33,716 nt of DNA, taken from contig NZ_LGDW01000485.1 in NCBI RefSeq assembly GCF_001280005.1, positions 1 through 33,716 on the forward strand. Reading direction: 5' to 3'. Positions 11,187-21,847 of this stretch are shown piece after piece (positions within the stretch are counted from its first letter, which is position 1; every line of letters starts with the position of its first letter). Below the pieces are notes generated by a model. It was not told the DNA's origin, ran no database searches, and worked only from the letters and a program-made list of their open reading frames with translations. This stretch comes from Streptomyces sp. NRRL WC-3618 (GTDB taxonomy: Bacteria > Actinomycetota > Actinomycetes > Streptomycetales > Streptomycetaceae). The position numbers and the translations under genes are program-made.

Positions 11187-14144
11187 CTACGAGGCCGCCT
11201 GGATCAGCCCCTCGCGGTGGGCGACCGCCACCGCCTCCCCACGGCTCGCCGCGCCCAGCTTGGCCAGGATGTTGGAGACGTGGACACTGGCCGTCTTGCC
11301 GCTGATGAACAGTTCCTCGCCGATCTGACGGTTGCTGCGGCCGAGGGCGAGGAGCCGCAGGACGTCCTGTTCGCGGGCGGTGAGGGGCGTCGGGACGGTG
11401 CCGGGATCCCCGACGGGAGAGGGTTCCGTGAGCCGGCCGCGGCGGATGAGGGCGTCCACCTCCTGGAGCAGGGGCGTGGCGCCCAGACGTACCGCCGTCT
11501 CGCGGGCCGCGCGCGCCTGTGCGGCGGCCTCCTCACGGCGGCCGTCCGCCAACAGAGCCTCGGCGAACCGCCTTCTGCAACGGGCCTGTTCGTAGACGTC
11601 GCCGAAGCCGAACCCCGTGACCGCCCGTTCCCACGCCCCCGCTTCGGGACCGGCCGTCGCCCGTGCCCACTCCGCTTCGGCGCGAGCCAGCCAGGCGTGT
11701 CCCTCGGGGCCCTGTGGGCTGCCGTCGCGACCGATCGCGCCCCGGGTCCTGGCCAGCTCCATCAGTTCGGCCGCCGTGTCCGTCCACCGCCGTGTCCCCG
11801 CCTCGTCGCCGGACCGGCGCAGGCGGACGGCCGTGTCGGCGACGGCGGCCAGCGCCAGGGCGACGAGCCGCACCGCTACCTCCGGGCGGGCCCCGGCGTC
11901 GTCGGTGAGCGCCTTCACCGTGCCGCGCACGCGCTCCACGGCCGCCTCGGGGTCACCCGCCAGCGCGGCGGCGTCGGTGAGCACGATGCTCGCGACCAGC
12001 GTGGCCATCCAGTCGAACGGACCGTCGAGAAGAGCCCGGGCGCGGTCGGCGGCGCCCAGATCACCGCGTGCCAGCGCCACGTACAGCGAAGGCCCCGCCA
12101 CATAACCGGCAGCCGCGGGCAGCACCTCGGTGTCGGCCGCCGCCGCGCGGGCGCACTCGTCCCACCGGCCCAGCGTGTACAGCACCAAGGAGTGCAGATA
12201 GCGCATCTCCAGGGGGTAGGGCGAGGAGAGGAGGCCGACGCGGCGGGCGCGGTCCAGGCCCTCGGAGAGCCACGGCAGACTCTCCTCCAGCAGACCGGAC
12301 TCGAAGCTGCCGATCGCGAGATTGAACAGCGCGCGCATCTCCACCGGCGTACAGCCTGAGTGCCGGGCCAGTTCCCGGGCCTCCAGGAACCGTTCGCGGG
12401 CCTCGGGCGTGCGACGGCCCCCTTCTTCGAGACCGGCCACGGAGATCATGAGATCGGCCTGCGCGTCGAGGGCCTGCAACCGCTCGGCGACCGAGAGAGC
12501 CTGCCGGGCCACCCGGAGCGCGGTGACGTTGTCGCCCATCTGCCGTGCCGCCATGACATGGGTGGCCGCCGCCCACACCCACGTCCGCGACGGAGGGTCG
12601 GCCGGGATCAGGGCGAGTGCCTCGCTGCTGTAGGCGTACGCGGCCGACAGGTGATCGATGGTCATCAGGTTGTCGGCGAGCGTGTAGCGCACGCGGGCCG
12701 CGAGTTCGGCGTCCGTGTCCCGGCCGGATCCCGCGAGCGCCGCCCGGGTGAGCGACACCGCGCGATGCGCCTCCCCGGCATGGGCCGCCGCGGCGGACGC
12801 CCGCAGCATGAGCGTCACCGTGTCCAGGCCCTCGCCCGTGGGCCGGGCGCCGGCCTCCACCGCCGGCCACATGTCGAGGGCGGCCTCCAGATGCCGCAGC
12901 TCCTCCGCGGGCGCGCCGACGCGAGCGGCGTGATCGGCGGCCTCCAGCGACGCGGTGAGCGCCTCGGCCAGGTCATGGCTCTCCCGGTAGTGGTGCGCGC
13001 GCTCCGCCGCACTCTCGGCGGGGCGTCCCCGCCCGGCCAGCAGCCGCGCGAACGCCCCGTGCAGTCGCGACCGCTCGCCCGGCAGCAGGTCGGCGTAGAC
13101 GGCCTCGCGGGCGAGGGCGTGTCTGAAGGAGTACGTGTTGCCCTCGCCGGGGACGAGGAGTTGCCGTCCGACCGCCTCGCGCAGCGCCGACTCCAGCTCG
13201 TCCTGCGGCAGTTGGACGGCGTCGCTCAACAGCTCGTGCTCGACGCGCCGCCCGGCCACGGCGGCCGTGCGCAGCACCTGCTGGGCGGTGTCGGACAGTT
13301 GCTCGAAGCGGATCAGGAGAACGTCGGCGAGCCCGCTGGGTACACCGCCCGATTCCGTGTCGGTGGCCGCGAGCAGCTCCTCCGCGTAGAAGGCGTTGCC
13401 CTCGGCCCGCTCGACGATCCGCCGCACGGTCGTGTCCGGCAGCGGCCCCTCGCCCAGGGCGCGCACCAGCCGGGCCACCTCGGGGTCGGCCATCGGCCGT
13501 AGCTCCAGCCTTTCCACGGCGGGCAGCCGCACCAGCTCCGCGAGCAGCGGGCGCAGCGGATGGCGGCGGTGGAGGTCGTCGGCGCGGTACGAGGCGAACA
13601 CGGCGAGCCGGTGACCAGGGGCGCCCGCCGATCCCTGGAGCACGCCCCGGCTGAGCAGGAACCGCAGCAGATCCCGGGAGGACTGGTCGGCCCAGTGCAG
13701 GTCCTCCAGGACGAGCAGCAGCGGCGCGACCTCGGTGACAGCGGCCAGCAGGCCCGCCATGCCCTCGAACAGACGCAGCCGCCCACCGGCGTCCCGCGCC
13801 CCGTCGTCCGCCCCGCCGCCGAGCAGCCGACCGACCACGGGATGCGCGGCGAGCGCCCCGGCGAACCGCTCGTCGGCCGCCAGCACCCCCAGGATCTCGG
13901 TGAACGGCAGATACGGCAGACCGACGTCACCGAGATCGACACAGTGCCCCGTGAGCACGGTCATCCCCCGGTCCGAGGCCCGCCCGGCCGCCTCCGCCAG
14001 CACCCGTGTCTTGCCCACCCCGGCGTCCCCGGCGATGAGCACGGCACGGGCCTCACGGACCCGGGCACGGTCCAGCACAGCGGCGAGACGGGTCAGCTCG
14101 TCGTCGCGGCCGATGAGGGGGGTGTCGAACAGGTTCTGCGGCAC
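11187..14144 (-). CDS. Large ATP-binding LuxR-family (LAL) transcriptional regulator
   Basis: A 985-residue LAL regulator. An N-terminal AAA/NACHT-like ATPase carries Walker A GDAGVGKTR (39-47) and Walker B LLLVLEDLHWAD (142-153); a long alpha-helical, TPR-like middle (about 330-880) probably senses a ligand or partner; the C-terminus (about 918-985) is a LuxR helix-turn-helix, with LTAREQDVLRLLALGRSNRQ and SGKTASVHVSNILAKLGA. Length and order match MalT-like LAL proteins, which activate sugar-use or secondary-metabolite genes in Streptomyces. The start is GTG at 14144; there is no clear ribosome binding site, and CAGGAT six bases upstream could be a leaderless -10. No obvious target cluster adjoins it, so the regulon is unknown. 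Confidence 0.94.
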   Translation of the reverse strand: MPQNLFDTPLIGRDDELTRLAAVLDRARVREARAVLIAGDAGVGKTRVLAEAAGRASDRGMTVLTGHCVDLGDVGLPYLPFTEILGVLAADERFAGALAAHPVVGRLLGGGADDGARDAGGRLRLFEGMAGLLAAVTEVAPLLLVLEDLHWADQSSRDLLRFLLSRGVLQGSAGAPGHRLAVFASYRADDLHRRHPLRPLLAELVRLPAVERLELRPMADPEVARLVRALGEGPLPDTTVRRIVERAEGNAFYAEELLAATDTESGGVPSGLADVLLIRFEQLSDTAQQVLRTAAVAGRRVEHELLSDAVQLPQDELESALREAVGRQLLVPGEGNTYSFRHALAREAVYADLLPGERSRLHGAFARLLAGRGRPAESAAERAHHYRESHDLAEALTASLEAADHAARVGAPAEELRHLEAALDMWPAVEAGARPTGEGLDTVTLMLRASAAAAHAGEAHRAVSLTRAALAGSGRDTDAELAARVRYTLADNLMTIDHLSAAYAYSSEALALIPADPPSRTWVWAAATHVMAARQMGDNVTALRVARQALSVAERLQALDAQADLMISVAGLEEGGRRTPEARERFLEARELARHSGCTPVEMRALFNLAIGSFESGLLEESLPWLSEGLDRARRVGLLSSPYPLEMRYLHSLVLYTLGRWDECARAAAADTEVLPAAAGYVAGPSLYVALARGDLGAADRARALLDGPFDWMATLVASIVLTDAAALAGDPEAAVERVRGTVKALTDDAGARPEVAVRLVALALAAVADTAVRLRRSGDEAGTRRWTDTAAELMELARTRGAIGRDGSPQGPEGHAWLARAEAEWARATAGPEAGAWERAVTGFGFGDVYEQARCRRRFAEALLADGRREEAAAQARAARETAVRLGATPLLQEVDALIRRGRLTEPSPVGDPGTVPTPLTAREQDVLRLLALGRSNRQIGEELFISGKTASVHVSNILAKLGAASRGEAVAVAHREGLIQAAS

Positions 14145-14204: not shown

Positions 14205-14555
14205 TCAGCGCAGGATCTCCGCCCAGTTCGCCGGCACCCGTCCCGCCGGTCCCGGTGCGGGCTGGTCGGCCGGGTGGCTCGTCGGGGCGGCCAGGGCCGG
14301 GCCGGACTCGTAGAGCTCGGACGTCTCGAAGTTCCAGAACCAGGCCTCGCCCGGTTCGTAACTGCGGATCACCGGATGGCCGGTGTCCCGGAAGTGGCCG
14401 GTGGCGTGCTTGGCGGGCGAGTCGTCGCAGCAGCCGATGTGGCCGCACAGGGCGCAGCGCCGCAGATGGAACCACCAGCCGCCGTCGGCGTCGCACTCGA
14501 CGCATCCGGCGCCGCTGGGCGGGACGCTGGGATCGATTCCGGTGTCCTTGGTCAT
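14205..14555 (-). CDS. UBP-type zinc finger protein
   Basis: A 116-residue protein whose first 85 residues form a ZnF-UBP domain. The likely zinc ligands are present in order: C18 and C21 (CVEC), C34 and C37 (CALC), C42/C43 in GHIGCCDDS, H50, H54 and H60 (KHATGHFRDTGHPVIRSYEP), followed by the GEAWFWNFETSE strand. In eukaryotic deubiquitinases and HDAC6 this domain binds the free C-terminal Gly-Gly of ubiquitin; the bacterial ligand is unknown. The tail (about 86-116) is Pro/Ala-rich and ends NWAEILR. ATG at 14555 overlaps the histidine kinase stop by four bases (ATGA), so it is the last gene of a coupled three-gene operon and should be made in step with the kinase and the response-regulator fusion. 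Confidence 0.93.
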   Translation of the reverse strand: MTKDTGIDPSVPPSGAGCVECDADGGWWFHLRRCALCGHIGCCDDSPAKHATGHFRDTGHPVIRSYEPGEAWFWNFETSELYESGPALAAPTSHPADQPAPGPAGRVPANWAEILR

Positions 14556-16021
14556 GACGGCTCCTGGGCCGGGTCGGGGGCGGCATCCGGGTCGGCGGCG
14601 GTGAGGGGGAGCAGCACCTGGAAGCGGGTGTCGCCGGGTACGGACTCGACCTTCAGGTCACCGTGGTGCTTGTTGACGACGATCCGCCAGGAGATGTCGA
14701 GCCCCAGCCCGGTACCCTCACCCACCGGCTTGGTGGTGAAGAACGGGTCGAAGATCCGGCCCCGGATCTCCGCCGGCACCCCCGGGCCCGTGTCGCGGAA
14801 CTCGACCAGAAGCCGGTCGTGCACCAGCGCCGTCCGTACGGTCAACGTCCCTTCGCCGCCCGCGCTGTTGATGGCGGAGACCGCGTTGTCGATCAGGTTG
14901 GTCCACACCTGGTTCAGCTCGGCGGGGTAGGCCGGGATCCTGGGCACCGAACGGTCGTACTCCTTCACGACCTTGACGAGCGGCCCGATCTTGCCGGACA
15001 GCATCAGCAGTGTGCTGTCGAGGAGTTCGTGCACATCGGCGACCTGGTAGGGGGCGCGGTCCAGCTGCGAGTACTGCTTGGCGGCGTCGACGAGGTGCGA
15101 GATACGGGTGGTGGAGTCCTCGATCTCGGACATCAACAACTCGGTCTCGACCGTGTAGTTGAGCCATCCGACGGCACTCTGAAGGATCTCCTCGTCGACG
15201 GCCGCCGCGACCTGTTCCAGCCAGTCGACGTCGAGACCGCCCTGTACGAAGGTCGGCGCGATCTGCCAGCCGCCCTGGACGCCGTGGTCGTCGAGCCAGT
15301 CGGCGAGTTCGTCCTCGCGGTCGGACGCTTCGAGCGGGCTCAACGCCGGTGCCTTGGCGACCCGTTCGGCCGTACGCTCCTGGATGTCTACCAGGGCCTT
15401 CAACGCGTCGCGCTGGTAGGGGCCCGAGGCGATGATGCCGAGCTTGTTGCGCATGTGCGCGACCCGGTCCCTGAGCGACGAGGTGGCCCGTACGGCCGCC
15501 GCGGCCGGGTTGTTGAGCTCATGGGTGAGACCCGCGGACAACGAGCCCAGCGCCAGCAGCCGTTCACGCTGCCCGACGGCCCGCTGAGTGGTCTGCGAAC
15601 CGAGGAACAGCCCCTCCAGGAGATGCACCGCCATCGGAAACCACTCGTGCATGACCTTCGCGAACGAGTCGGCGGGCAGGACGAAGAACCGGGTGGGCCG
15701 CGACACCCGCACCGAGTTCATGTACCGCTGCGGCTTCCGGTCCCCCAGGTACGCCTGGACGGCCCCCGCGTACACCCCGGACTGGGACGTGCGGCTCACT
15801 TCGACGTCGTCGCCGCCCACCCGGCGCGACATGACGACCGTGCCCTCGATCATCACGTAGAAGCAGGTCGCCGGGTCGCCCTCGGCGTAGACCGGCCCCG
15901 GGTCGAACAGTTCCACCCGTCCCTCGCTGCACAGCCTGCCGAGCTGCTCGGCTGTCAGCTTCTCGAACAGGAACAGCGCACCGATCTCCGCCGGGCTGCA
16001 CGGCATCAACCGCCCGCTCAC
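14552..16021 (-). CDS. Cyclic-nucleotide-binding-domain histidine kinase
   Basis: A soluble 489-residue sensor kinase. Residues 10-130 are a cyclic nucleotide-binding-like (CRP/cNMP) beta-roll (PVYAEGDPATCFYVMIEGTV), though the phosphate-binding Glu/Arg signature of true cAMP sites is not evident. The kinase core has an H-box LSAGLTHELNNPAAAAVRA with H167, an N-box LNQVWTNLIDNAVSAI (369-384), G1 DTGPGVP (410-416), FDPFFTTKPVG and G2 GEGTGLGLDIS (434-444). The helical insert between H-box and N-box (about 185-310) is longer than usual. No membrane segment is present. GTG at 16021 was chosen: GGAG lies six bases upstream and it overlaps the previous stop by four bases (GTGA); an ATG at 16006 has a weaker context. 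The obvious partner is the receiver domain encoded immediately upstream. Confidence 0.92.
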   Translation of the reverse strand: MSGRLMPCSPAEIGALFLFEKLTAEQLGRLCSEGRVELFDPGPVYAEGDPATCFYVMIEGTVVMSRRVGGDDVEVSRTSQSGVYAGAVQAYLGDRKPQRYMNSVRVSRPTRFFVLPADSFAKVMHEWFPMAVHLLEGLFLGSQTTQRAVGQRERLLALGSLSAGLTHELNNPAAAAVRATSSLRDRVAHMRNKLGIIASGPYQRDALKALVDIQERTAERVAKAPALSPLEASDREDELADWLDDHGVQGGWQIAPTFVQGGLDVDWLEQVAAAVDEEILQSAVGWLNYTVETELLMSEIEDSTTRISHLVDAAKQYSQLDRAPYQVADVHELLDSTLLMLSGKIGPLVKVVKEYDRSVPRIPAYPAELNQVWTNLIDNAVSAINSAGGEGTLTVRTALVHDRLLVEFRDTGPGVPAEIRGRIFDPFFTTKPVGEGTGLGLDISWRIVVNKHHGDLKVESVPGDTRFQVLLPLTAADPDAAPDPAQEPS

Positions 16022-17694
16022 GACTGCTCCAGATACCGGTGGACGAGCATCACGGCCATGGCTCCCTCTCCGACGGCGGACGCGACCCGCTTGGCGGACT
16101 CCGCGCGCGCGTCCCCGGCGACGAACACACCGGGGATGTTGGTCTCCAGGTGGTACGGCGGCCGGTCCAGCTCCCAGTCCGCGGGCGGCCGTCCGTCGGG
16201 GGTCAGGTCGGGACCGGCGAGGATGAACCCGCGCTCGTCCCGCAGCACCGTGCCGTCCAGCCAGTCGGTCAGCGGGGCCGCGCCGATGAACACGAACAGC
16301 CACTGCGCGTCGACCAGTTCGGTCTGCCCGCTCGCCGTGTCGCGCAACGTCAGCTGCTCGAGATGGTCGCCGCCGTGCGCGGCCTCGACGACCGTGGCGG
16401 CCCGCACCGAGATGTTCGGCGACTCGGCGATCTGCTGGACCAGGTAGTGCGACATCGATGCCGTGAGATCCGCTCCGCGCACCAGCAGCGTGACCGACTT
16501 GGCGCCCCTGGACAGGTACATCGCCGCCTGCCCGGCCGAGTTGGCGCCGCCCACGATGTACACGTCGTGGCCTTGGCAGGCGGCGGCCTCGGTGAGCGCC
16601 GACCCGTAGAACACCCCGCAGCCCGACAGCTCGGTGGCGCCCGGCGCCTCCAGCTGCCGGTACGACACACCGGTCGCCAGGATCACGCTGTGCGCGGCGA
16701 TCTGAGACCCGTCCGAGAACCGCACGAGCCGCGCCGCACCGCTCACCTCCAGGCCGGTCACCTCGCGCGCGGAGAGGATCTCGGCGCCGAACTTCGTGGC
16801 CTGGCGGCGCGCCCGGTCGGTGAGCTGGCCGCCGGACACCCCGTCCGGGAAGCCCAGGTAGTTCTCGATGCGTGAACTCTGCCCGGCCTGCCCGCCGGTC
16901 GCCGACCGTTCCACCAGCACCGTCCGCAGCCCCTCCGAGGCCCCGTACACGGCCGCGCCCAGCCCGGCGGGCCCGCCGCCGATGACGACCAGGTCGTAGA
17001 AGTCGGCCGTGGGCGTCGTCGCCAGCCCCACCTGAGCGGCCAGCTCCGGCACCTCCGGCTCGACGAGCGGCGTACCGTCCGCCGTGATCACCACCGGCAG
17101 CCGCTGCCCGTCCTGGCCGCAGGCCGCGAGCAGCCGCTGCCCCTCGGGTTCCTCGGTGGAGTACCAGCGGTACGGCACCTGGTTGCGGGCCAGGAACTCC
17201 CGTACGTCCGACGAGCGGGCCGACCACCGGTGACCGATCACCTTGGTGCTCGGCACGGGCCGGAAGTCACTGCACCGCCACGCCTCGAGGAGATCGTCGA
17301 GCACCGGGTAGAGCTTCTCCTCCGGCGGATCCCACGGCTTGAGGAGATAGTGGTCGAGGTCGACGACGTTGATCGCGTCGATCGCCGCGTTCGTGTCCGC
17401 GTACGCGGTGAGCAGCACCCGCCGGGCGCCCGGATAGACGTCCAGGGCCTGTTCGAGGAACTCGATGCCGTTCATCTGGGGCATCCGGTAGTCGGCCAGG
17501 ATCACCGCGACCAGATCACCGCGCAGCTTCAGCTCCCGCAGCGCGTCCAGCGCGGACTCCCCGGACTCGGCGCGCACGATCCGGTACGACTCGCCGTAGC
17601 GCCGCCGCAGGTCGCGGGCGACGGCCCGGGACACCCCGGGGTCGTCGTCCACCGTCATGATGACGGTCCGCGCCGTGTCCGCGGCCTGTGGCAT
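16018..17694 (-). CDS. Response regulator fused to glutaredoxin-like and thioredoxin-reductase-like domains
   Basis: A 558-residue three-part fusion. Residues 8-140 are a complete receiver: acidic VDDD (15-18), phosphoacceptor D68 in ILADYRMP, T96 and K119 (LLKPW). Residues about 148-215 look like a glutaredoxin/thioredoxin-fold segment, but the CPYC site is replaced by WSARSS. Residues about 232-558 are a thioredoxin-reductase-type flavoprotein: FAD motif VVIGGGPAGLGAA (237-248), TGGQAGQSSRIENYLGFP (267-284), NAD(P) motif VGGANSAGQAA (381-391) and a C-terminal GDAR (528-531). The reductase CxxC position reads YGSAL with no cysteines. So phosphorylation seems possible, while dithiol exchange is not. 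ATG at 17694 has GGGAG four bases upstream; an ATG at 17724 lacks one. It leads the coupled operon with the histidine kinase and the UBP zinc finger gene. Confidence 0.92.
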   Translation of the reverse strand: MPQAADTARTVIMTVDDDPGVSRAVARDLRRRYGESYRIVRAESGESALDALRELKLRGDLVAVILADYRMPQMNGIEFLEQALDVYPGARRVLLTAYADTNAAIDAINVVDLDHYLLKPWDPPEEKLYPVLDDLLEAWRCSDFRPVPSTKVIGHRWSARSSDVREFLARNQVPYRWYSTEEPEGQRLLAACGQDGQRLPVVITADGTPLVEPEVPELAAQVGLATTPTADFYDLVVIGGGPAGLGAAVYGASEGLRTVLVERSATGGQAGQSSRIENYLGFPDGVSGGQLTDRARRQATKFGAEILSAREVTGLEVSGAARLVRFSDGSQIAAHSVILATGVSYRQLEAPGATELSGCGVFYGSALTEAAACQGHDVYIVGGANSAGQAAMYLSRGAKSVTLLVRGADLTASMSHYLVQQIAESPNISVRAATVVEAAHGGDHLEQLTLRDTASGQTELVDAQWLFVFIGAAPLTDWLDGTVLRDERGFILAGPDLTPDGRPPADWELDRPPYHLETNIPGVFVAGDARAESAKRVASAVGEGAMAVMLVHRYLEQS

Positions 17695-17794: not shown

Positions 17795-18148
17795 TCAGCT
17801 CCGCCGCGAGCCGAGCACACAGAACTCGTTGCCCTCCGGGTCCACCAGAGTGGTCCAGGACTGCTCTCCCTGGCCGATGTCCGTGTGGCGAGCTCCGAGG
17901 GCCAGCAGCCGGTCGACCTCGGCCTGCCGGTCGTCGGGCCGGAAGTCGAGGTGCAGCCGGTTCTTGACGGTCTTCGGCTCCGGGACGTGCACGAACAGCA
18001 GGCCGGGCATCCGGTCCGGGGCGGGCCGGATCTCGTACTCCTCGGGGGAGTCGTCGACCACCACCCAGCCGAGGGCATCGGCCCACCAGCGGCCCAGCGC
18101 CGCCGGGTCCGCCGCGTTCACGATCACTTGTTCCCATTCCAAGGTCAT
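17795..18148 (-). CDS. VOC family (glyoxalase/bleomycin resistance/dioxygenase superfamily) protein
   Basis: A 117-residue single VOC domain protein with the usual two beta-alpha-beta-beta-beta halves: WEQVIVNAADPAALGRWWAD then LGWVVVDDSPEEYEI, and NRLHLDFRPDD then HTDIGQGEQSWTTLVDPEG with NEFCVLG. Possible metal ligands are H in NRLHLDF and E in NEFCVL; substrate cannot be told. ATG at 18148 starts MTLEWEQ, the usual family start; it has no Shine-Dalgarno sequence but TACCCT lies six bases upstream, so a leaderless message is possible. An in-frame ATG at 18184 is less likely. It is divergent from the universal stress protein gene and 100 bases upstream of the response-regulator fusion on the same strand. 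Confidence 0.85.
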   Translation of the reverse strand: MTLEWEQVIVNAADPAALGRWWADALGWVVVDDSPEEYEIRPAPDRMPGLLFVHVPEPKTVKNRLHLDFRPDDRQAEVDRLLALGARHTDIGQGEQSWTTLVDPEGNEFCVLGSRRS

Positions 18149-18160
18149 GAGTGCAGGGTA
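18149..18160 (-). promoter_or_regulatory. Candidate -10 box for leaderless VOC gene
   Basis: TACCCT (18160-18155 on the minus strand) is followed by six bases and the ATG, the same spacing as at the ROK, HNH-like and AlkB genes. A -35 box is not evident. Confidence 0.35.
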
Positions 18161-18211
18161 GTGAAGACTGGTCCCGGTACGCATCCAAGATCACGACCCA
18201 GAGGCAACCGT

Positions 18212-20390: not shown

Positions 20391-21131
20391 TCAGTGTGCC
20401 CGCTCCCGCGCCTGCTGGGCCGCCTCCCGCACGCTGCCGTGGTGCACGGGTCCGTGGCCGGGCAGCAGGACGTCGGCCTGGAGCTTTTCGAGCAGGTCCA
20501 GCGAGGCCACCGCACGCGCGCGCTCGTGGTGGAACATGTCGGGCAGCAGTTGCGGGCCCTTGAGCCGGGAGGTCGGGTGCTCGCTGACCAGGGCGTCGCC
20601 GGAGACGAGGACTCCGGCGTCCGGGAGGTGGAAGGCGCAGTGCCCGTCGGTGTGCCCAGGGGTGTGGACGGGGACCGGCCCGCCGGGCAGGTCGAGCGCC
20701 TCCGGGAACGGCTGCGGCTCGGCGACCGGCACCCGGGTGGTGCCGCCGGAGCGGATCGCGTGCACCGCCCAGGGGAGCACCCCCGGCCGCCACCCGTTCC
20801 TGAGCACCTCCCCGACGCTCACCTGGTGCAGGAAGTCCCGGCGCGCGTGCGGCACTTCGGCCTCGTGTGTCAGTACCGGCGTGCCGTAGGTGGAACGCAG
20901 GTACTCGGCCGAGCCGAGGTGGTCGTTGTGGGCGTGCGTGACGAGTACCGCAGTGACCGCCTCCGGTGAGCTGCCCACCTGCGTCAGCGAGTCGAGCACC
21001 AGCTGCCGGTCGCCCAGGTACCCGGTGTCGATCAGGGTGGCGGCGTCGCCCTCGGTGAGGATCACCCAGTTGGTGTTGCTTCCGTGCACGAGGTGAATGC
21101 CATCGGCGACTTGTTGGACGTCTGCCCGCAT
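20391..21131 (-). CDS. MBL-fold metallo-hydrolase
   Basis: A 246-residue metallo-beta-lactamase-fold hydrolase. The zinc motif is THAHNDHLG (H66, H68, D70, H71), followed by further ligands in VHTPGHTDGHCAFH and the bridging Asp in VLVSGDALVSEH, and a late LLPGHGPVHHG histidine. This places it with glyoxalase II-like/soluble MBL hydrolases; the substrate is not evident. No signal peptide is present. ATG at 21131 has GGGAAG just upstream; in-frame codons further up are not supported. It lies 54 bases upstream of the DUF4032 gene stretch in transcriptional order reversed (downstream of AlkB by 89 bases), all on the minus strand, but operon membership is not certain. Confidence 0.92.
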   Translation of the reverse strand: MRADVQQVADGIHLVHGSNTNWVILTEGDAATLIDTGYLGDRQLVLDSLTQVGSSPEAVTAVLVTHAHNDHLGSAEYLRSTYGTPVLTHEAEVPHARRDFLHQVSVGEVLRNGWRPGVLPWAVHAIRSGGTTRVPVAEPQPFPEALDLPGGPVPVHTPGHTDGHCAFHLPDAGVLVSGDALVSEHPTSRLKGPQLLPDMFHHERARAVASLDLLEKLQADVLLPGHGPVHHGSVREAAQQARERAH

Positions 21132-21220
21132 GATCTTCCCGTTCTGCAGAGCGCTGCCGGATGACCCACAGCAAAGCAGACGCCGGGGGAGCGGCTCACC
21201 ACCGGGCGGGCAGCCGGTGC

Positions 21221-21847
21221 TCACCCCACCCCGTGCGGCCGGAACTGGATGCTGATCCGGGGACCCGTGGCTCGTGTGCTCTTGGGAATGGCGTGCTCCC
21301 AGGTCCGCTGGCAGGAGCCGCCCATCACGATCAGGTCCCCGTGCCCGAGCGGACGCCGCAGCGTCTCACCGCCGCCCACCGGCCGCAGCATGAGGTCGCG
21401 GGGTGTGCCGACGGAGAGAATCGCGACCATGGTGTCCTCGCGCGCACCCCGCCCGGTCCGGTCCCCGTGCCAGGCGACGCTGTCCCGCCCGTCGCGGTAG
21501 TAGCAGAGCCCGGCCGTGGTGAACGGCTCCCGGAGCTCGGCGGCGTAGTGTGCGCAGAGCGCGTTCCGTGCCTCGTCCAGCACCGAGTGCGGCAGCTCGT
21601 CCCCCTCGCCGTAGTAGGCCAGCAGCCGGGGGACGTCCACGACGTGGTCGTACATCTTCCGGCGCTCGGCCCGCCACGGAACCTCGGCCGCCAGCAGCTC
21701 GAACAGGGCGTCGGCCCCGTGGAGCCAGCCGGGGAGTTCGTCGATCCAGGCACCGTGACCGAGCGTCGTGCGGTGTGTTCCGGCCAGTGCGCCCAGCCGG
21801 ATCTCGTCGGTCTGATCGAAGAGAGAGCCTTGGAGATGCGCGGTCAT
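21221..21847 (-). CDS. AlkB-like 2-oxoglutarate/Fe(II)-dependent dioxygenase
   Basis: A 208-residue AlkB family enzyme, expected to remove alkyl groups from DNA or RNA bases by oxidative demethylation. The iron ligands are WHGD (H127, D129) and H185 in RTWEHAIPKS; the 2-oxoglutarate arginines are in GPRISIQFR (R197, R203). The RLLAYYGEGDELP segment and the CYYRDGRDSVAWHGD stretch match the nucleotide-recognition lid and core of the family. ATG at 21847 has no well-spaced ribosome binding site (GGGAG is 12 bases away) but TAAGCT lies six bases upstream, so a leaderless transcript is likely. A LexA-like sequence covers the spacer of that promoter, consistent with DNA-damage control. The gene is divergent from the TetR regulator. 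Confidence 0.92.
   Translation of the reverse strand: MTAHLQGSLFDQTDEIRLGALAGTHRTTLGHGAWIDELPGWLHGADALFELLAAEVPWRAERRKMYDHVVDVPRLLAYYGEGDELPHSVLDEARNALCAHYAAELREPFTTAGLCYYRDGRDSVAWHGDRTGRGAREDTMVAILSVGTPRDLMLRPVGGGETLRRPLGHGDLIVMGGSCQRTWEHAIPKSTRATGPRISIQFRPHGVG

Follow-up and report, generated by a model that had tools for sequence, protein, structure and literature searches.

A Streptomyces gene set pairing a CNB-domain histidine kinase with a receiver-fused, dithiol-less thioredoxin reductase-like flavoprotein and a UBP zinc finger

Results

Gene content of the locus

The subject of this analysis is a three-gene, minus-strand set in a 33,716-nucleotide stretch of DNA from Streptomyces sp. 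NRRL WC-3618 (assembly GCF_001280005.1, contig NZ_LGDW01000485.1, positions 1 to 33,716; hereafter the window), the genome of which is 9.3 Mb. The set occupies positions 14205-17694 and encodes a fusion of a receiver (REC), a glutaredoxin (Grx)-like domain, and a thioredoxin reductase (TrxR)-like flavoprotein; a histidine kinase with a cyclic nucleotide-binding (CNB) domain; and a UBP-type zinc-finger protein. Its features are as follows.

16018-17694, minus strand: REC, Grx-like, TrxR-like flavoprotein fusion, 558 aa, ATG start (open reading frame and Pfam)
17323-17661, minus strand: receiver domain, fusion residues 12-124, with the D68 codon at 17491-17493 (Pfam Response_reg)
17020-17247, minus strand: Grx-like domain without redox cysteines, fusion residues about 150-225, with WSARS at 17212-17226 (alignment to the Pfam Glutaredoxin region of dithiol sister proteins; structure model)
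16021-17010, minus strand: TrxR-like FAD/NAD(P) domain, fusion residues 229-558 (Pyr_redox_2; PDB matches to thioredoxin reductases)
16591-16608, minus strand: position of the TrxR CATC motif, here Y-G-S-A-L-T, fusion residues 363-368 (alignment)
14552-16021, minus strand: CNB histidine kinase, 489 aa, GTG start (open reading frame and Pfam; GTGA overlap with the fusion gene)
15647-15892, minus strand: kinase CNB domain, residues 44-125 (Pfam cNMP_binding)
15521-15523, minus strand: predicted phospho-accepting His167 of the kinase, in a HELNNP box (His in 55/55 rows)
14600-14923, minus strand: kinase HATPase_c domain, residues 367-474 (Pfam; N, G1, and G2 boxes conserved)
14205-14555, minus strand: UBP-type zinc-finger protein, 116 aa, ATG start (open reading frame and Pfam; ATGA overlap with the kinase gene)
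14319-14504, minus strand: zf-UBP domain, residues 18-79, with nine conserved Cys/His (Pfam and alignment)

The genes overlap in pairs by four bases, as a first-pass annotation made from the sequence had noted: the plus strand reads TCAC (coding GTGA) at 16018-16021 and TCAT (coding ATGA) at 14552-14555. That annotation took the overlaps to mean production in fixed proportion, which is arguable for close relatives but is not general, as the gap between the matched regions of fusion and kinase runs from 0 to 137 bp over 50 actinobacterial pairs. The receiver carries the acidic pair (D16-D18), the phospho-acceptor D68, T96, and K119, and was correctly described as intact. Pfam assigns Pyr_redox_2 to fusion residues 233-544 and calls no glutaredoxin domain in the window fusion; a Pfam scan of the three operon proteins found no DNA-binding domain. 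An annotated record of S. fungicidicus contains these same three genes, likewise ordered. The best 120 fusion homologues listed are 89-95% identical, and the named ones among them are mostly Streptomyces proteins called FAD-dependent oxidoreductase, with some called thioredoxin reductase (NADPH).

Both dithiols are lost across the family

The flavoprotein has no cysteine at the TrxR active site: where the true TrxB of the same genome reads CATC, the fusion reads Y-G-S. This is a property of the whole family. Across 191 family rows, which include CNB-fused and shorter forms, no row has a Cys at either position, and the residues found there are Gly/Ala and Thr/Ser. A CxxC at this site is likewise absent from all 81 actinobacterial REC fusions and from the best 80 named loci (described below). 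The Grx-like active site has fared the same way. In the window it reads WSARS (residues 157-161, with S158 and S161), where dithiol relatives have WCxDC, and among the 191 rows both cysteines are kept in none and one cysteine in 8; most rows have Ser, at 158 (153/191, with 15 gaps) and at the second position (113/191).

The cofactor-binding motifs persist, as the first reading of the sequence had held, and are essentially invariant across the family. G239, G241, and G244 of the FAD-binding GxGxxG do not vary in 37 rows. In the second Rossmann domain the NAD(P)-binding residues G382, S386, and R406 are present in 193/193 rows and N385 in 192/193; position 369 remains acidic (172 Glu and 10 Asp in 193 rows), and a lone Cys373 is found in 144/193, the replacements being mostly Tyr, Met, Leu, or Val. 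The 193-row alignment includes two dithiol sister rows (L101 and L103), and both alignments retain near-copies from one genome, perhaps the window's own copy twice.

Dithiols are found in a sister group of ten loci, the proteins of which are 37-43% identical to the fusion and homologous to it over residues about 150-556. All ten retain CATC (as FCATC), and WCxDC is present in 9/9 with a readable Grx part, which Pfam recognizes as Glutaredoxin in 3/3 tested. The sister frames gave no receiver or CNB match; two of them (L255 and L256) are cut by a contig end. In a tree built without the CxxC columns, the thiol-less rows form one clade with support of 100/100, and rooting on a single TrxB row, the sole outgroup and a long branch, places the dithiol forms as basal; L256, which has no Grx part, was omitted from this tree, and three further rows (L042, L047, and L132) are missing. 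Because the thiol-less rows form a single clade with the dithiol sisters outside it, the simplest history is a single loss of both redox centers, in the lineage leading to a family whose members carry REC, CNB, or neither.

The set is thus not a decayed copy, since close homologues also lack the cysteines. A decayed, functionless thioredoxin reductase, which the disappearance of both redox motifs might suggest, is ruled out by the clade-wide loss and the essentially invariant FAD and NAD(P) positions. A TrxR-fold domain without its own dithiol would not reduce disulfides in the TrxR way.

Separately, a short stretch within a 238-aa frame (G000:C166:82342-82599, locus L003) shares 64% identity with the C-terminus of a CNB-TrxR-like protein; it may be a remnant, or else a second copy that was misassembled.

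Structure model of the fusion

The fusion was modeled with a pLDDT of 87 and a pTM of 0.72, and the model has alternating strands and helices across the Grx-like region. Its best structural matches are low-Mr thioredoxin reductases, with which it has the two Rossmann domains, for FAD and for NAD(P), in common. TIGR01292 covers fusion residues 233-555, but scores 213.6 bits against a cut-off of 343.45, and the fusion differs from TrxB in lacking CATC and in adding an N-terminal receiver and a Grx-like domain. The top Foldseek row for the model is AhpF. AhpF has Trx-fold domains before its TrxR-like domain, with dithiols; these dithiols have no counterpart in the fusion, and the full-length root-mean-square deviation (rmsd) is poor, at 17-28.

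In thioredoxin reductases, NADPH meets the flavin when the enzyme is in its flavin-reducing form, whereas the flavin-oxidizing form brings the dithiol to the flavin. The flavoprotein part of the model superimposes well on the flavin-reducing Lactococcus enzyme (5mh4, TMt 0.94, rmsd 2.4) and far less well on the flavin-oxidizing form (5mjk, TMt 0.63, rmsd 7.6), and a second structural comparison gave rmsd values of 1.7 and 7.4, respectively. The predicted flavin-reducing conformer is weak evidence that fits a dithiol-less protein, which would not need the other form.

The kinase is the core partner of the fusion

Neighborhoods were compared in three samples. The class sample consists of 148 genomes of the window's actinobacterial class, from which 116 fusion or relative rows were used for distances. 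The N-terminal halves of three split fusions (genomes G111, G100, and G132) were omitted from this count; in the same genomes we observed related fusions (L063, L143, and L144) that match in two pieces near the Grx-like domain, apparently through an insertion. The named loci are the best 80 matches to a cyanobacterial query, which is not an even sample, with nine groups assigned from record titles. The third sample is even and covers the class to which Dyadobacter belongs (Bacteroidia), with 119 genomes.

Most kinase matches in the class sample (54 of 61) have a fusion no more than 300 bp away. A kinase stands beside 50 of the 79 full-length REC fusions and beside four partly matched fusions, with one more at 517 bp; for all 54 fusions that have a kinase, the closest one shares the strand of the fusion. 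The same pairing recurs in other phyla: among the named loci, 61 of 80 have a kinase no further than 700 bp away, in the orientation of the fusion in 57 and only on the opposite strand in 4, and the fusion, present in 8 of the 119 Bacteroidia genomes, has an adjacent kinase in seven of the eight. We conclude that the kinase is the core partner of the fusion, and the gene linkage in relatives that the first-pass annotation relied upon is borne out for this pair.

Receiver residues co-vary with the presence of the kinase. They were read in 81 fusions, namely 78 of the 79 full-length ones (all except G046:C13, which has a kinase) and three of the four partial ones (all except G008:C27, which also has one). 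An intact receiver with a kinase was found in 54 cases (53 within 141 bp and one at 517 bp), an intact receiver without a kinase in 1, a degenerate receiver without a kinase in 26, and a degenerate receiver with a kinase in none. L107 was scored as intact with its acidic pair off the contig, and four of the 26 degenerate rows (L111, L129, L132, and L133) have less than 1.3 kb of downstream sequence. Among the named loci, 79 receivers are intact and the single degenerate one has no kinase. Taken together, the linkage and the co-variation suggest that phosphate would pass from kinase to receiver.

The H, N, G1, and G2 boxes of the kinase are invariant or nearly so in 55 actinobacterial rows, and its HisKA falls below the Pfam cut-off. 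Ten kinases from the named loci were scanned; CNB was found in all ten (in L212 a fraction of a bit under the Pfam cut-off) and HATPase_c in nine, the tenth (L184) being split over two frames in its record. The cyclic-nucleotide fold proposed as the kinase input is present. At the two positions of the phosphate-binding cassette where, in CRP, Glu and Arg bind the cyclic nucleotide monophosphate, all 55 actinobacterial rows have A/G/S (position 87) and Tyr (position 100), with columns matched by eye; some kinases elsewhere (L187, L202, L211, and L220) retain GE and R. The CNB domain of the window kinase lacks the pocket Glu and Arg that characterize cAMP/cGMP-binding CNB domains.

The UBP zinc finger as a probable, non-obligatory partner

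The zinc-ligand-like residues C18, C21, C34, C37, C42, C43, H50, H54, and H60 are invariant in 25 rows. His39 aligns with the Arg of ubiquitin readers (R221 in USP5) that binds the C-terminal carboxylate of ubiquitin. Trp72 is invariant and Trp74 nearly so, in a stretch aligned with the aromatic residues of ubiquitin readers, in a protein whose model is poor (pLDDT 60). We also observed a long UBP type with a conserved C-terminal tail, PGPxxRVPxxW, past the finger (window 14208-14318; also L039, L040, L041, L045, L046, L097, and L111).

A UBP finger occurs in 88 of the 148 class genomes. Of the 73 genomes with the thiol-less family, 69 have one, against 19 of the 75 that lack the family (Fisher p 2e-19), a comparison that counts any UBP finger, antiporter tails included, and treats genomes as independent though they are not, relatedness being uncorrected. 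Genomes holding only the dithiol sister have none (0/7). By distance, 22 of 79 REC fusions have a UBP gene no more than 2.5 kb away, and of the 31 class matches that start near residue 150 without a REC match, such a gene lies near 8 of the 22 thiol-less relatives and 1 of the nine dithiol forms; this last (L103, at 1.5 kb) is in a genome, G130, that also has a thiol-less form. Adjacency in the named loci is uneven across phyla, at 7/17 in Actinomycetota, 11/16 in Bacteroidota, 2/18 in Cyanobacteria, and 1/11 in Acidobacteriota. In the Bacteroidia sample, UBP is found in two of the eight fusion genomes, adjoining the fusion in one, and in 0 of the 111 others. Most UBP-bearing Bacteroidota loci run kinase-fusion-UBP and those of Streptomyces fusion-kinase-UBP; this variation in gene order argues for a functional tie between UBP and the module.

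UBP fingers also accompany other genes. Antiporter-like membrane proteins (L044, L105, L135-L139, and L142) carry one as a C-terminal tail; by eye these proteins look CPA1- and CPA2-like, presumably cation/proton antiporters of two types. In four (L089, L090, L092, and L095) of 20 thiol-less loci without a REC match, a dnaK-grpE-dnaJ-cbpM-clpB-trxA-UBP row ends with the thiol-less flavoprotein, which ties the flavoprotein to protein disaggregation; L094 has the chaperone row without UBP, and the plasmid loci L082 and L083 have the full row. Among nine annotated plasmid regions with a relative, UBP is adjacent in five, and no UBP match was found in the other four (Nostoc, Cupriavidus, Gloeocapsa, and Deinococcus). 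The initial assignment of a UBP zinc finger thus stands, as does its association with the flavoprotein; its partnership is likely but optional, the finger is common in the class, and the ubiquitin-reading Arg is replaced by His.

Genes flanking the operon

Directly downstream of the operon lies a LuxR-type regulator with an AAA_16 ATPase domain (11190-14144, minus strand). Upstream are a glyoxalase-like gene (17798-18184, minus strand) and a metallo-beta-lactamase-fold gene (20394-21224, minus strand); a gene of the latter fold is also found near the S. fungicidicus counterpart set.

Discussion

Relation to known systems

Two relatives of the fusion are instructive. The dithiol Grx-TrxR sister group shares the Grx-then-TrxR order and differs by keeping CATC and WCxDC and by having no receiver or CNB match. 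The CNB-fused relatives, annotated as cyclic nucleotide-binding domain-containing thioredoxin-disulfide reductase, share the thiol-less Grx-like and TrxR-like core and have an adjacent UBP gene in L082, L083, L084, and others. Unlike the window set, their CNB domain is fused to the flavoprotein, a kinase lies within 300 bp in 0 of the 31 matches of their length class, and in some actinobacteria they are the last gene of the chaperone row.

A gene-context proposal that places bacterial ZF-UBP domains in a cyclic-nucleotide-dependent redox signaling system was reportedly made by Burroughs, Iyer, and Aravind in 2011, and the general idea is probably theirs. The first-pass annotation knew of no functional description of the whole set. 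No experimental study of it was found in the literature searched, but the architecture was already in print: REC-thioredoxin reductase response regulators, called Mycobacterium-like, are reported in two Heimdallarchaeota (PMC5847659). They have the same domain architecture as the fusion, and the accessible part of that article does not discuss the cysteines, the kinase, or UBP.

Proposed mechanism and alternatives

Our current hypothesis, which we hold with middling confidence, is that the set is a two-component system with an NAD(P)H-flavin output that has no dithiol exit and with UBP as an optional adaptor. The soluble CNB kinase would autophosphorylate on His167 and pass the phosphate to Asp68 of the receiver, which, via a redox-dead glutaredoxin-fold linker, would control the TrxR-fold NAD(P)H-FAD domain. 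The reduced flavin could then reduce a non-dithiol acceptor or serve as a redox read-out, and the UBP zinc finger would probably connect the module to a target by binding a peptide or a protein tail.

Several observations weigh against this hypothesis. The co-variation of receiver and kinase is clean but thin, because it amounts to only two or three independent changes on the tree; one of these is L111, which lost the receiver residues and has an intact paralogue in the same genome. The intact receiver of L062 has no adjacent kinase, the kinase match on its contig being 22 kb off. A kinase is missing within 700 bp in 19 of the named loci, where some contigs are truncated; these 19 include 9 of 18 cyanobacterial loci and 2 of 2 from Chlorobi/Kapabacteria. 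UBP is not within 2.5 kb of 57 of the 79 full-length fusions or in 59 of the named loci, and six of the eight fusion-bearing Bacteroidia genomes have none. The modeled conformation may reflect the predictor and not the protein. Finally, a receiver-bearing cluster of open reading frames occurs near the set in 15 of the named loci (6 of 11 acidobacterial), and the kinase may therefore have other targets. L199, L200, L222, L223, and L227 are among the loci with this cluster, which in several Acidobacteria lies upstream of the fusion and divergent from it.

That cluster, a representative of which by eye has a NarL/LuxR-type look, offers a possible alternative target for the main rival, in which the flow is reversed: the flavoprotein is a sensor whose flavin redox state, set by the NAD(P)H/NAD(P)+ ratio or oxygen, alters the receiver's behavior as a phosphate sink for the kinase, and the kinase signals elsewhere. 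The lack of a conserved dithiol exit from a protein that retains its FAD and NAD(P) motifs would suit a sensor, as would the lack of a DNA-binding domain in the three operon proteins. We nevertheless regard it as somewhat unlikely, given that the fusion is the sole response regulator in the window operon, that 65 of the named loci have no member of the cluster, and that the kinase has a CNB input domain of its own.

The remaining alternatives concern the role of individual parts. UBP could be a neighbor with no functional tie, the real unit being kinase and fusion. Besides the many fusions and the plasmid regions without it, 20 long-type UBP proteins picked as not beside a fusion had no fusion, kinase, or chaperone match in their loci, and ten flanking proteins from six such loci had no common family pattern. 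Co-occurrence across class genomes (any UBP finger, antiporter tails too), adjacency in four phyla with differing gene orders, and adjacency to thiol-less relatives without REC and in five of the nine plasmid regions make this quite unlikely. It is very improbable, in our estimation, that thiol chemistry persists through cysteines elsewhere, such as C373 in the fusion or those of UBP. C373 is frequent, the acid at 369 is kept, and the chaperone operon of some CNB-fused relatives contains a thioredoxin (WCGPC in L082); against this, no conserved second Cys was seen near C373, its replacements are mostly Tyr, Met, Leu, or Val, the UBP cysteines look like zinc ligands, and the seven genomes with only the dithiol sister lack UBP.

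A broader form of the two-component hypothesis can be put forward only tentatively. A disulfide reductase that lost both dithiols in a single ancestor would have become a signaling part, a TrxR-fold NAD(P)H-flavin switch gated by a histidine kinase or by a fused CNB domain. Through the tails of proteins, and with no ubiquitin involved, UBP would connect this switch, and with it the NAD(P)H status, to chaperones and to cation/proton antiporters.

Implications

The missing dithiol speaks against the function implied by the name thioredoxin reductase that some sources give to these proteins. Representatives of the set occur in several phyla, and the one thiol-less core comes in two domain arrangements, either with a receiver and a separate CNB kinase or with a directly fused CNB domain. 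If the kinase does gate the flavin chemistry, the output of this two-component system would be the state of a redox cofactor and not transcription, and a zinc finger best known from ubiquitin biology would have a role in bacteria.

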